Source of the DNA: Chloroflexota bacterium
GTDB lineage: Bacteria > Chloroflexota > Anaerolineae > Anaerolineales > Villigracilaceae
DNA: 64,000 nt
NCBI GenBank assembly: GCA_016866215.1
Contig: VGNE01000009.1
Span: 1 to 64,000 of the forward strand
Reading direction: 5' to 3'
Shown here: positions 15,491 to 58,510 of the stretch, piece by piece
Layout: each line of letters starts with the position of its first letter
How positions within the stretch are numbered: position 1 is the first letter of the stretch
Program-made: the position numbers and the translations under genes
The notes under the pieces: model-generated
Seen by the model: only the letters and a program-made list of their open reading frames with translations
Told to the model about the DNA's origin: nothing
The model's database searches: none

Positions 15491-15973
15491 TTAGATAAAG
15501 AATTGAATACTTGATTCGGATGCGTGCTCAAGCATGGTGGCAACACCGACAGGTTCGGCAGCTTCGGGGATAAAATGGTCGCGCGTAATTTCCATCACAT
15601 CCATGCTCATCTGGCACGGTAACATCTGAACGCCGAGGTCAATTGCGGCCTGGCGCAATTCAGGCAATTGCGTAACACCTTTTTGCTTCATCATCAGTTT
15701 GAACATCCAACGTCCCATGCCGCCCATATTGAGTCTGGATGGGCCAATTGCATTCAAACCGCCGCGGTTCATCACACCGAGCATCTTCCCAAACAAGCCT
15801 TTGCCCGTGAACACGCCATCTCTTTGAATGGCTTTCAATCCCCAGAACGTGAAGAACATGACAACTTCCATGCCCGCCGCAGCCGCGCCTGTGGCGATGA
15901 TGTACGAAGCCATCACTTTATCCAAATCCCCGCTGAGAACAACCAACGTAAGTTTATTCTTTCTTTCTGCCAT
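15491..15973 (-). CDS. DsrE/DsrF-like protein (DsrE2 type)
   Basis: Start set at ATG 15973 with GGAGG upstream. The 160-residue protein begins KLTLVVLSGDLDKVMASYIIATGAAAAG, the DsrE-fold start, and contains VVMFFTFWGLKAIQR and the conserved Cys in MLPCQMSMDVM. Family knowledge: DsrE2 proteins carry persulfide sulfur and are often encoded with TusA and Hdr-like genes. It is 16 bases upstream of tusA in the same operon. Confidence 0.85.
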   Translation of the reverse strand: MAERKNKLTLVVLSGDLDKVMASYIIATGAAAAGMEVVMFFTFWGLKAIQRDGVFTGKGLFGKMLGVMNRGGLNAIGPSRLNMGGMGRWMFKLMMKQKGVTQLPELRQAAIDLGVQMLPCQMSMDVMEITRDHFIPEAAEPVGVATMLEHASESSIQFFI

Positions 15974-16010
15974 TTTGGGCCTCCATGAAAAGTATTCGCG
16001 CTTTTGCGCG

Positions 16011-16343
16011 TTATGCAAATGCTTCCACCAACTCCGCACGTTTCGCCAGCATGTCTCGCATGGCAGCGCGTAAAAGATCAAGAGCCTGGACCAAGCGTTT
16101 ATCGCCGAGGCTGTAAACGATCACTGTGCCCCGTCGTTCGTTCGTCACCATGCCGCGCTCGCGCAATACCTTCAAATGACGCGAGACCAGCGGCTGTGGC
16201 ATGTTCAGCTCATTGCACAGTTCGGTCACATTGCGCGAACCCTGCGAAAGCGCGTACAGGAGCATGATTCGGTTTGGGTCTGCAAGACCCGCACAGATCT
16301 CCGCGTGTAATTGATTGATTTCAACTTCGAGCGACGTATTCAT
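16011..16343 (-). CDS. ArsR/SmtB-family regulator
   Basis: Start chosen at ATG 16343, with GGAAGG at the right distance; an in-frame ATG at 16352 directly abuts that site. The 110-residue winged-helix protein has ADPNRIMLLYALSQGSRNVTELCNELNMPQPLVSRHLKVLRERGMVTNERRG with normal ArsR spacing. It has Cys in ELCNEL and EICAGL and no clear metal-binding ELCVCDL motif, so a persulfide or redox sensor of the BigR/SqrR kind is possible. It is first in the sulfur-module operon. Confidence 0.88.
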   Translation of the reverse strand: MNTSLEVEINQLHAEICAGLADPNRIMLLYALSQGSRNVTELCNELNMPQPLVSRHLKVLRERGMVTNERRGTVIVYSLGDKRLVQALDLLRAAMRDMLAKRAELVEAFA

Positions 16344-48869: not shown

Positions 48870-49343
48870 ATGACAACCGACCTCACACCAAAAAACACTC
48901 AAGCCTCACAAATCACACTCTCACAGTTAATGCACCCTGAACACGCCAACCTGCTTGGCAATGTACATGGCGGCTGGATCATGAAGCTGGTGGACGAAGC
49001 CGGCGCGCTTGCCTGTATGCGCCATGCGCAAAAGAAAGTCGTCACCGTGGCAATTGACTCAATGACTTTTCGCCAGCCCATCCGCATTGGCGATCTGATC
49101 ATCCTCAATGCAAAAGTGACTTACACCGGCAACACATCCATGGAAGCTGAAGTTCAAGTGGTAGCAGAAAACCCAGTCACAGGCGAGCAGACAAATACCA
49201 ACACTGCCTATCTGGTTTATGTTGCGCTGGACGATAAGGGACACCCAAGCCCTGTCCCCGCCTTGATCGTTGAAACCGACGAAGAGAAAGCGCAAATGAC
49301 GCTAGCCAAAAAACGCCAGGCACATCGTATCGCGCAAAAATAA
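48870..49343 (+). CDS. Acyl-CoA thioesterase (YciA/BFIT-type hotdog)
   Basis: The 157-residue hotdog enzyme has QLMHPEHANLLGNVHGGWIMKLVDEAGALACMRHAQ, with the catalytic Asp in KLVDEAG, and VVTVAIDSMTFRQPIRIGDLI, typical of YciA/ACOT members. Cytoplasmic; substrate chain length not readable. A striking three-armed palindrome follows the stop by 12 bases. Confidence 0.9.
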   Translation: MTTDLTPKNTQASQITLSQLMHPEHANLLGNVHGGWIMKLVDEAGALACMRHAQKKVVTVAIDSMTFRQPIRIGDLIILNAKVTYTGNTSMEAEVQVVAENPVTGEQTNTNTAYLVYVALDDKGHPSPVPALIVETDEEKAQMTLAKKRQAHRIAQK

Positions 49344-49355
49344 ATTCACTCCGGA

Positions 49356-49412
49356 CTCTGGAGTCGGACAGCTTGCTGTCCGAACAAGGGAGCAAGCTCC
49401 CTGACTCCAGAG
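49356..49412. repeat. 57-bp three-way-junction palindrome
   Basis: Closing stem CTCTGGAGTC (49356-49365) with GACTCCAGAG (49403-49412), perfect 10 bp. Hairpin 1 is GGACAGC-TT-GCTGTCC (49366-49381); hairpin 2 is GGGAGC-AA-GCTCCC (49388-49401). No mismatch in any of the three stems. It lies between the thioesterase and the GT39 gene. Confidence 0.95.
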
Positions 49413-49427
49413 GAAAAATCTTCCACC

Positions 49428-50969
49428 TTGCAAAAACTCCGCCAACACCCCATCTTGATCCTGCTGATCATCAATATTACAGTCGGCTTGATGACTTTTC
49501 GTAACTACGGCTTATCCTGGGACGAGCCGCTCTTTTACGATTACGCGGATGCACTTCCCTACGCCTACTCCCCTGCTGAATGGTTCAGCGGGGATTTCAA
49601 TTTAAGCAATGCCTACGGCTCCAGCGGCACAGACCATGCCAATCGCGGACCTGCCTACATATTGCTTGCGCGTCCATTCGTTTCGCTGATCGAATCTCTC
49701 GGCATGGATCATGCATCTGCCTGGCATCTTGTCAACTTCCTGACATTCCAACTGGGTATTTATCTTTTCTACCGCTTTGCAATAAAGTGGATGGGTAAAC
49801 CCTCCGCACTTTTCTCTGCCGCTTTGTTCGCCTGGCAGCCGCTTTTATGGGGACATGCTTTCATCAACCCAAAAGACATGCCATTCCTGGTATTTTTCAT
49901 TGGGGCAATCTGCTTTGGCTTTGAAATGGTGGATGAACTCTCTCAAGATGAAAGTTCTAAATACACAAAAGCCCTTCTAGCAGCATTTTTTCTTGGAATT
50001 GCAACCTCTATTCGTGTGCTCGGTCCCCTCGCCGCTATTTTGACGGGGGTTTACGCACTCGGACAGCTCAGTAAAATTAGGCTCAGTGAATTAATAAAGC
50101 ACTTTGCTGTTTACACATTTTTGGCGATATTAATTACCTTCATCGCCTGGCCATATCTGTGGACAAATCCCCTGCAAAAATTCGTTGAAGTCTTCGGGTT
50201 CATGTCCGATAACCCAACGCAGTTAACTGTGCTCTTCAATGACGTGCAATATAAAGCGGATGGATTGCCGCGAAGATACCTGCCCACCCTTCTTGGCTAC
50301 ACGCTAACCGAACCAGTTTGGCTTTTATTCGCTGTCGGACTCATTTATGGGTTTTGGCATTCCGACAATCAAAAAAGACTTGCTCTGGTTCTCACTTTGC
50401 TGTGGTTCATCATTCCAACCGCATATGTCATTCTTAGTAAACCTCCCATGTATGACGGCTTTCGCCACTTTCTCTTCATCCTGCCGCCTATTTTCATTTT
50501 TTCAGGAATAGCGTTTGAGAAGACATCTGAATTAATAAAAAGGAATTGGTCAAAAGCAATTTTTACATTATTTATTATGATCTTTGGGATCATACCTGCG
50601 ATCCAACTACATCCTTACGAATACGCTTATTACAATACTTTTGCAGGAGGGGTCCGCGGCGCGTTCCGTCAATATGAAACAGAATATTGGCTGACCTGTT
50701 ATCGAGAAGCAGTCCTAATGTTCAATGAAGAAGCGCCATCAGGTTCGCAGCTTTTTGTCAGACGCGAGCCTTATATCGCGGACTATTACGCGAGCGAAGA
50801 TATCGTCATCCGCGATTTCCGAACAGAACAAAAAGACATCCAGCCTGGCGATTATATCCTGGCAAACTCTCGCTCAAATGAAGACCTGCGATTTTTAAGA
50901 GATCAGCCCTCCTTTTTGGAAATCTCGCGCAATGGCGCAGCCTTCTGCGTGATCAAAAAAGTCCCCTGA
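49428..50969 (+). CDS. GT39-type membrane glycosyltransferase
   Basis: The 513-residue protein has about ten to eleven hydrophobic helices and the dolichyl-phosphate-mannose/ArnT-like start YGLSWDEPLFYDYADALPYAY, with the acidic pair in WDEP typical of GT-C catalytic loops. A periplasmic domain sits at the C-terminus (after about residue 400). The start is TTG 49428 without a strong ribosome site. It probably transfers sugars from polyprenyl-phosphate carriers on the outer face; acceptor unknown. Confidence 0.82.
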   Translation: MQKLRQHPILILLIINITVGLMTFRNYGLSWDEPLFYDYADALPYAYSPAEWFSGDFNLSNAYGSSGTDHANRGPAYILLARPFVSLIESLGMDHASAWHLVNFLTFQLGIYLFYRFAIKWMGKPSALFSAALFAWQPLLWGHAFINPKDMPFLVFFIGAICFGFEMVDELSQDESSKYTKALLAAFFLGIATSIRVLGPLAAILTGVYALGQLSKIRLSELIKHFAVYTFLAILITFIAWPYLWTNPLQKFVEVFGFMSDNPTQLTVLFNDVQYKADGLPRRYLPTLLGYTLTEPVWLLFAVGLIYGFWHSDNQKRLALVLTLLWFIIPTAYVILSKPPMYDGFRHFLFILPPIFIFSGIAFEKTSELIKRNWSKAIFTLFIMIFGIIPAIQLHPYEYAYYNTFAGGVRGAFRQYETEYWLTCYREAVLMFNEEAPSGSQLFVRREPYIADYYASEDIVIRDFRTEQKDIQPGDYILANSRSNEDLRFLRDQPSFLEISRNGAAFCVIKKVP

Positions 50970-53512: not shown

Positions 53513-54535
53513 ATGACTACACACCGTGAACGCATTCAAGCCTGCCTGACGGGCGAAACGACCGACCGCACACCCATCGCCCTCTGGCGCCACTTCCCTG
53601 AGGCTGACCAAACCCCCGAGGCGCTGGCCGCATCCACACTGGGATATCAAAGCGCCTATGATTTCGATATTGTCAAAGTCACCCCTGCCTCCTCGTTTGC
53701 AGTAAAAGATTGGGGCGTCCAAGACCAATGGATGGGCGACGCAGAAGGTTCAAGAAGATACACCAAACGTGTCATCCATAAACCCGAGGATTGGGAAAAA
53801 CTCCCCGCGCTTGACCCTGCTTCCCCGCATCTGGCCGGACAGTTAGCCTGCCTCCGTTTAATCAAACAGAATCTCAACCCGGAGACGCCCCTCATCCAAA
53901 CCATATTCAATCCGCTTTCCCAGGCAAAAAACCTGGCAGGTAACGACCTGCTGTTGGAACACATCAGAAAATACCCGGAGGCCGTACTGAAGGGGTTGGA
54001 CACCATCACCAAAACCACGGTGAAGTTTGTCGAGGCAGTCCGCGAAACTGGCGTGGACGGCATCTTCTACGCCATACAGCACGCGCAAGAAAGCCTGCTG
54101 GACCTTATGGAGTACAAAACCATCGGCTTGCCGTATGACCAGAAAGCGCTTGAGCCTGTCAAAGACCTGTGGTGCAACATGCTCCACCTGCACGGCAAAG
54201 ATGTTTATTTTTCATTACTGCCTTTCATGGATTTTCAAATCGTCAACTGGCATGACCGTGAAACCTACCCATCTCTTTCTGAGGCGCAGAGTCTCTTCAA
54301 AGGTGCGGTTTGCGGAGGCTTGAGACAGGATACTCTAACTATGGAAAATCCAGATCAGGTCAGGAATGAAGCGCAAGACGCGATCAAGCAAACAAACGGC
54401 AGGCGTTTCATGCTCGGCACGGGATGTGTTGTCCCCATTACCGCATCACATGAAAATTATTTAGAGGCCAGAAAGAGCGTAGACTCCCCTCTCCTTTCAG
54501 GAGCCCCCTTTGGGGGTGATAAGGGGCAGGGGTGA
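53513..54535 (+). CDS. Uroporphyrinogen decarboxylase-family protein (likely methyltransferase type), altered C-terminus
   Basis: TIM-barrel URO-D family member of 340 residues, with RIQACLTGETTDRTPIALWRHFP, IQTIFNPLSQAKNLAG, GVDGIFYAIQHAQ and MLGTGCVVPITASHENYLEARKSV. The N-terminal Arg motif of true HemE is absent, so it is more likely one of the MtaA/corrinoid or aromatic-demethylation relatives. The last 16 residues (SPLLSGAPFGGDKGQG) are encoded by a three-armed palindrome and probably replaced the native end. Confidence 0.8.
   Translation: MTTHRERIQACLTGETTDRTPIALWRHFPEADQTPEALAASTLGYQSAYDFDIVKVTPASSFAVKDWGVQDQWMGDAEGSRRYTKRVIHKPEDWEKLPALDPASPHLAGQLACLRLIKQNLNPETPLIQTIFNPLSQAKNLAGNDLLLEHIRKYPEAVLKGLDTITKTTVKFVEAVRETGVDGIFYAIQHAQESLLDLMEYKTIGLPYDQKALEPVKDLWCNMLHLHGKDVYFSLLPFMDFQIVNWHDRETYPSLSEAQSLFKGAVCGGLRQDTLTMENPDQVRNEAQDAIKQTNGRRFMLGTGCVVPITASHENYLEARKSVDSPLLSGAPFGGDKGQG
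54486..54526. repeat. Three-way-junction palindrome at the URO-D gene end
   Basis: Closing stem CCCCT (54486-54490) with AGGGG (54522-54526) around CTCCT-TTC-AGGAG (54491-54503) and CCCCC-TTT-GGGGG (54504-54516). Same plan as the elements at 49356 and 58411. It codes for the C-terminus of the upstream protein and nearly reaches the rsmD ribosome site. Confidence 0.85.
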
Positions 54536-58410: not shown

Positions 58411-58510
58411 AATCCCCTCACCACTCCGACAGGCTCAGTGCGCCGCCTGCCCTCTCCCAAAGGGAGAGGGGACTCCCTTCCCCTTCGGGGGAAGGGTCGG
58501 GGATGAGGGG
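58411..58510. repeat. Three-way-junction palindromic element after the acyl-CoA dehydrogenase
   Basis: Closing stem CCCCTCA (58414-58420) with TGAGGGG (58504-58510); hairpin 1 CCCTCTCCC-AAA-GGGAGAGGG (58450-58470); hairpin 2 CCCTTCCCC and GGGGAAGGG (58475-58496). It fills the gap between two convergent genes and has a T-run after it. Confidence 0.85.

Follow-up and report, generated by a model that had tools for sequence, protein, structure and literature searches.

The 57-base element at positions 49356-49412 (plus strand) of the window, by which we mean the whole 64,000-nucleotide stretch of Chloroflexota DNA analysed here, is very probably a REPIN: a non-autonomous pair of inverted REP hairpins that is mobilised by a RAYT, a transposase of the HUH/Y1 type. 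Its sequence places it in a family of small, apparently mobile DNA repeats with about forty members in its own genome (G000). We infer that it is cleaved and transposed, most likely as folded single-stranded DNA, by the RAYT encoded at G000:C48:15413-15955. In each hairpin, the parts read by this RAYT are probably the apex and the foot TGGAGT; the stem would serve as a perfect, largely sequence-free spacer, which would be why stems diverge in pairs while foot and apex stay. After insertion, copies decay by substitution and their loops appear to be inverted repeatedly, and unexpectedly often, in place, and the simplest cause of inversion would be template switching across the hairpin during replication.

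Structure and location of the element

Read from left to right, the element consists of CTCTGGAGT, CGGACAG-CTTG-CTGTCCG, AACA, AGGGAG-CAAG-CTCCCT, G and ACTCCAGAG. The left closing arm (49356-49364) carries the foot TGGAGT of hairpin A (49365-49382), and the spacer AACA (49383-49386) separates hairpin A from hairpin B (49387-49402), which is the second REP in inverted orientation; both hairpins are also seen in an alignment of 19 copies. The right closing arm (49404-49412) reads CTCTGGAGT on the minus strand and is the foot of hairpin B. Each of the two REP hairpins has the foot TGGAGT and the apex GC-TT-GC. The initial annotation had described a three-way junction without mismatch, and the sequence bears this out: the closing arms CTCTGGAGTC/GACTCCAGAG and the two hairpins, with apexes GCTTGC and GCAAGC, pair with zero mismatches, while the exact stem lengths (10+6+6 bp or 9+7+6 bp) depend on the assignment of C49365 and G49403. 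The RNA fold of 49356-49412 reaches -38.1 kcal/mol (z -6.48), a value matched by none of 200 shuffles; the DNA folds of the two strands have z -4.81 and -5.29, again with 0/200 shuffles each. At minimum energy this copy folds as a rod whose inverted apexes pair together, not as the three-way junction (junction against rod: RNA -34.4 and -38.1, DNA -17.5 and -18.8 kcal/mol). Separate hairpins are the best fold in 13 of 19 copies with DNA parameters and in 9 of 19 with RNA parameters, as read by eye from free folds only.

The element is intergenic, and both neighbouring open reading frames lie on the plus strand. Upstream is a 157-aa, acyl-CoA thioesterase-like product (48870-49343), and downstream a 513-aa, glycosyltransferase-like membrane protein (49428-50969); both resemblances were judged by eye.

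Two further elements in the window had been credited by the initial annotation with the same plan of one closing stem and two hairpins. The plan holds for 58411-58510, which has one closing stem and several hairpins (DNA fold z -5.3 and -5.5); the hairpins within 58414-58510 are CCTCTCCC...GGGAGAGG and CTTCCCC...GGGGAAG, enclosed by CCCTC/GAGGG-like arms. The element at 54486-54526 exists too, with a weak fold little better than chance (DNA z -1.7 and -2.0; on each strand, 11 of 200 shuffles match it). 58411-58510 belongs to a different and abundant palindrome family, CCCTCTCCC...GGGAGAGGG, to which 54486-54526 is partly similar. A joined query returned 44 matches at E<=10, 18 of them with E<1e-7 besides two self-matches. 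A single family for all three elements was rejected: the covariance model R1, described below, gives 49356-49412 a score of 76.2 bits (own-genome E 9e-15) and nothing else in the window more than 13.5 bits.

The repeat family

R1 was built on 19 aligned full copies picked by the pattern TGGAGT...ACTCCA, which leaves apex and stems unselected. Of its 22 hits, a chance match and a nested duplicate were discarded, and the alignment of 19 rows leaves out L043, a copy with a single hairpin. A covariance-model search had been proposed by the initial annotation as a check, and with 150 of 1615 candidates scored in the own genome it returned 40 distinct places at E<=0.01, of which 19 are the training copies and 21 lie outside the training set. 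At E<=10, the same 150 of 1615 candidates yield at least 85 strand-wise matches, most copies being matched by R1 on both strands. In the 3.74-Mb genome, two exact apex patterns were found 6 and 16 times and the reversed controls not at all, and blastn finds 45 matches at E<=10, some of which are the two strands of one place. Across 150 genomes of the family, searched with stricter filters and at most 36 candidates scored per genome, 69 contain matches at E<=0.01 and the other 81 contain none.

Dispersal of short palindromes in many copies, here over 40 places, is a mark of REPs and REPINs. The GT[AG]G head (GTAG or GTGG) at the 5' foot of REPs is absent, and the foot is TGGAGT in its place. 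Among the 19 copies the invariance of the foot proves nothing because TGGAGT/ACTCCA was required at picking; likewise, the 19 aligned full copies show two inverted REPs as a unit under a pattern that itself demands inverted feet. The stems vary across these copies and pairing is kept, with 94.1% of 437 cells paired; control structures slid along the alignment pair in at most 43.2%. Cells in which both partners have changed number 52, compared with 17.8 in shuffles (0/500 as high). The elements are depleted from long reading frames: 27 of 43 elements were tested, and 14 of these lie more than 80% inside an any-frame open reading frame of at least 150 aa, compared with 99 of 108 control windows, a comparison of extragenic placement that spurious reading frames blur.

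The RAYT and its association with the repeat

A TnpA-REP gene had also been suggested as something to look for, and one is present: the gene for a 181-aa RAYT (P0001) lies between elements at C48:15342-15399 and 15959-16026, so that it is bounded by its cognate REPs as RAYT genes are. With the 40 genomic places, this arrangement upholds the REP/Y1-transposase type that the initial annotation had put forward. The protein scores 93.4 bits against the NCBIfam model for REP-associated tyrosine transposases, NF047646 (cut-off 80), and 23.2 against PF01797 (cut-off 23), and matches E. coli TnpA-REP (4er8) with E 4.7e-7. The HUH and Y---NP signatures are present as NHYH and YVHLNP; in an alignment of 24 rows, H68, H70, Y129 and N133 are invariant and P134 is kept in at least 90%. 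The genome holds seven PF01797 matches, two of which are fragments of one gene.

At E<=1e-10, relatives of the RAYT are present in 46 of the 150 family genomes. The five closest relatives, at L071-L075, are 72-86% identical and each have at least one complete copy of the repeat alongside; in three of these loci the strict pattern finds elements on both sides of the gene. All 17 genomes with a close RAYT (at least 58% identity, three partial hits included) have eight or more R1 matches, against 28 of the 133 other genomes (p 1e-10; matches counted per strand among at most 36 scored per genome). Those 28 genomes count against the reading, though RAYT genes that were lost or left unassembled could explain them.

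Several related genes stand elsewhere in the own genome. A second RAYT (L160, G000:C5:29600-31600), a paralogue with 52% identity, is bounded by its own GGAGT-footed hairpins with another apex, AAGT-TCT-ACTT. Two RAYT-like genes, at L061 (G000:C36:30500-33800) and L063 (G000:C7:44200-47700), fall below the NCBIfam cut-off; the palindromes that flank them are TCGGAATTAATTCCGA and GTGACAGTCAC...GTGACTGTCAC. PF01797-like domains are found in proteins of 551 aa and 170 aa, at L065 (G000:C3:52000-55600) and L064 (G000:C4:1-4500); these may be domesticated, non-catalytic Y1 domains, since the usual HUH motif is missing by eye. An IS200-type transposase gene (L062, G000:C7:37019-37359) is interrupted: its first matched piece contains one TAG, and a change of frame separates this piece from the second.

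Foot and apex across RAYT lineages

The foot is independently supported by its enrichment at RAYT loci in a scan of named genomes, whose titles come from several phyla; from the 441 RAYT relatives that the scan found, the 80 best loci were retained. Of 240 hairpins with a stem of at least 7 and a loop of 2-5 that lie no more than 220 bp from the RAYT, 131 have GGAGT at the foot, and these come from 52 of the 80 loci; the other 28 loci have no GGAGT-footed hairpin. Control windows 1-1.44 kb from the RAYT, where hairpins are far rarer, have the foot at one of 30 hairpins. TGGAG precedes hairpins in 48 of 73 loci (seven of the 80, including L200 and L233, were omitted by hand), and the guide tetranucleotide could therefore be GGAG or NTGG, the latter one base off GTGG.

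The apex varies by lineage, with GC-TT-GC, AAG[CT]-TCT-[AG]CTT, GTC-TCC[CT]-GAC, GAC-AT-GTC and others among hairpins surveyed with the foot GGA[GAC][TC]. On a RAYT tree the apex label needs 32 changes, compared with 61.1 for shuffled labels (0/200 as low); the tree has 97 rows, 86 of them different, and near-copies inflate the clustering, while the apex classes were merged by hand and 18 rows with no detected foot form a separate class. The TCTCC class is a single branch with support 96. The GC-TT class is not one clade, because it needs 8 changes, and the CC-TC class, of two rows, is not clustered. Judged from these sequences, the apex tends to follow the RAYT lineage.

Five residues, W94, Q95, E100, H101 and R104, are named for recognition of GTAG in the E. 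coli protein in the account given in PMC6006769. They align here with W109, H110, D114, T115 and T118, differences that would fit a changed foot and prove nothing.

In-place loop inversion

The apex is asymmetric, reading TT from the foot, and inversion of the loop is therefore detectable. Copies of the own genome were compared with orthologs in the nearest relative, G097, among the matches listed; the flanks of the two genomes differ by roughly a tenth, and part of the listed places in a third genome, G115, was compared as well. Of 20 G000-G097 pairs, four (L041, L043, L186, L321) were set aside as not alignable, and the remaining 16 gave 27 comparable arms. By eye, six arms read TT in one of the two genomes and AA in its counterpart. 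They belong to five elements (L026/L282, L183/L161, L187/L276 in both arms, L312/L358 and L314/L360), and spacer and peculiar stem letters otherwise agree. Two independent substitutions would be expected to yield about 0.04 such arms at 11% divergence, a figure read by eye from flank identities.

A census of loops in arms with three intact inner pairs counted TT 169, AA 14, TC 6, CT 2, GA 2, AG 1, TA 1 and AT 0. The half-changed loops TA and AT thus occur once against 14 AA, and TC and CT become GA and AG when inverted. The near-absence of half-changed loops suggests template switching over stepwise change as the source of the inversions. Flipped arms come mostly from G000, G097 and G115; in other genomes, where the loci are mostly top-scoring or RAYT-side copies, there are 75 TT and one AA. 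At one orthologous position, in the right arm of L183, a pair has changed as a pair, being C-G in G000 and A-T in G097 and G115, and template switching could produce compensatory pairs of this kind in the absence of selection. In the left arm of L187 and in L026, the inverted arm has no mismatch and its counterpart in the other genome has two. The idea that flipped arms are generally more perfect was nevertheless rejected (12 of 19 perfect against 112 of 196 unflipped, p 0.81; in the own genome alone 6 of 9 against 12 of 37, p 0.12), so that stem repair by template switching is not established.

A mobile REPIN could have acquired its covariation and inversions by another route, through selection for transposition or through arm exchange driven by the RAYT, and we regard this as possible, if clearly on the doubtful side of even. 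Cleavage in the systems of S. maltophilia and Marinomonas needs perfect stems and the loop sequence, as described in PMC8266576, and the failure of flipped arms to be more perfect also speaks for this route. Arm replacement does happen, since shared sites differ in the kind or orientation of arms or of whole elements (L182, L186, L180 with G115, L318 with G115). Against this route, the six inverted arms otherwise keep their spacer and peculiar stem letters. In addition, a reverse-complemented loop severely reduces cleavage and binding in S. maltophilia (PMC8266576), and selection for transposition should therefore not favour flipped loops. By the same S. maltophilia result, and by analogy, a flipped arm probably marks a copy that is dead and preserves a record of the event. 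Template switching remains our preferred origin of the inversions.

At three shared sites the whole element is apparently oppositely oriented between genomes (L180/G115 L289; L318+L345/G115 L332; L186/L169), as would result if the part inside the closing stem had been inverted or if elements had inserted there more than once. Longer changes at hairpin tips were also seen. The genome has three instances of the 14-mer GGCGCTAAAGCGCC, all of them in apexes of family-1 hairpins (L313, L317 and L318, at G000:C62:5911, C63:8078 and C10:4824), and the orthologs of these copies, two in G097 and one in G115, have an ordinary apex. Apex inserts resembling ACCCACAGGGCAAG recur in G097 hairpin tips (L354, L356, L357, L358), and inserts resembling ATCCACAGGACGGTGA in those of G115 (L372, L378, L379, L380, L382).

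Fate of resident copies

The site of the window copy was sought in 57 genomes of the genus. DNA matches were found in 50; at least 30 loci were listed, of which 22 were readable and eight were not parsed. Among the 22 readable orthologous sites, those of the own genome and G097 carry the element and 20 do not. The G097 copy has four substitutions, each of which breaks a separate pair, and pair-breaking changes are also seen in the shared copies L172, L179, L180, L181 and L315. On these comparisons there is no evident constraint on a copy after insertion, and it decays by substitution.

These observations bear on the alternative of a structured RNA, a regulator or an mRNA 3' end element with selection on RNA pairing at each locus, which the initial annotation had also raised. 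It would account for the strong fold and the covariation, and the element could be transcribed, as its two flanking genes lie on the same strand. It is spoken against by the decay of the window copy and the 20 of 22 sites that lack the element, and also by the spread of copies over 40 places, some beside transposase genes, and by the fact that R1 matches most copies on either strand. In the window no Rfam family scores as high as its gathering threshold, and identity with a known Rfam RNA was rejected on this ground. Decay, missing elements and depletion from reading frames are the behaviour of a mobile element and not of a kept RNA, and we consider a structured RNA very improbable. A classical MITE of a DDE transposase deserves hardly any credence: its terminal inverted repeats of 9-10 bp would resemble the closing arms, but the gene between copies is a RAYT, and the foot occurs elsewhere with single hairpins beside RAYTs. 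The initial annotation had taken a shared fold with divergent sequence to imply selection on structure; this can stand at most for the lineage that spreads and fails for the resident copy, given the four broken pairs and the sites without the element.

Two relatives hold unrelated, perfect-looking palindromes (L136 in G114, L157 in G120) at the site orthologous to 49344-49427, which may for this reason be a preferred landing place for hairpin repeats.

A possible mutational origin of the covariation

Covariation is the usual proof of a selected RNA structure. The hairpins described here are strongly covarying DNA, yet resident copies decay and loops are inverted in roughly one fifth of the arms compared, and the mutation process itself may be the source of part of the covariation. 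The idea that copying errors can build compensatory pairs becomes directly testable in a cell, and hairpin tips may serve as a natural record of DNA-copying errors. A REP/RAYT class with an unusual foot also extends beyond the proteobacterial models, and a constant foot with an apex that changes with the transposase lineage lends itself to the study of hairpin choice by HUH enzymes.

We put forward a wider proposal tentatively, giving it a little less than even credence: TGGAGT-footed REPs would form a class spread over several phyla, in which the RAYT reads foot and apex alone, recurrent template switching rewrites the stem, the asymmetric CTTG apex records the switches and much of the covariation is mutational. 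If true, this apex would act as a natural tape recorder of switching events, and mutation, not selection for pairing, would account for much of the 'compensatory' covariation that such repeats show.

Comparison with known systems

The closest resemblance is to the REPs of Pseudomonas, as far as the sources describe them, which have GGAG in the head and often the apex GCTTGC. The REPINs and group 3 REPs of P. fluorescens share the inverted doublet and a RAYT bounded by its REPs, and several of these REPs have the apex GCTTGC (PMC3116915, PMC3686654, PMC2817692). GGAG sits inside the GT[AG]GGAG heads of REPs in Pseudomonas and Xanthomonas (PMC3686654, PMC2817692), and compensatory changes are described as common in the REPIN hairpin (PMC3116915). 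In contrast to the P. fluorescens REPs, the foot here is TGGAGT with no GT[AG]G head, and the stem varies widely among copies. The TnpA-REP/REP systems of S. maltophilia and Marinomonas are alike in their perfect palindromes, critical loop, tolerance of stem letters and harmful mismatches, but have a GTAG foot, and the recognition rule that was measured there is inferred here (PMC8266576).

The RAYT shares with TnpA-Y1 class 2 an HUH motif of the form NHYH and the Y---NP signature (PMC6006769). It fits subclass 2.1 in Y[IV]HLNP and NH[YF]H and subclass 2.8 in NHYH and a proline-rich start, and has WD where the two subclasses are listed with W[EQ] or W[YH], all by motif assignment (PMC6006769). 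In the same account, subclass 2.1 is reported without REPs and subclass 2.8 with GT[AG]G feet, and RAYTs each have their own REP family. GTAG repeats of Chloroflexi have paired stem variants in most families (PMC3733652); GGAG is absent from the text of PMC3733652 and PMC6006769.

Template switching in hairpins is described as producing loop inversion and paired changes from one copying event, with CTTG loops enriched among instantaneous compensations (2.43% against 0.01%) and inversion with compensation 'extremely rare' in rRNA (PMC8794818). Here, by comparison, the hairpins belong to mobile DNA, and 6 of the 27 comparable arms show loop inversion. A literature search of mostly open text returned no report of loop inversion in REPs. 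The present system differs from those known in its foot TGGAGT, its tight doublet, the mix of motifs in its RAYT, the occurrence of the foot at the side of RAYT genes across phyla and the frequent inversion of loops in place.
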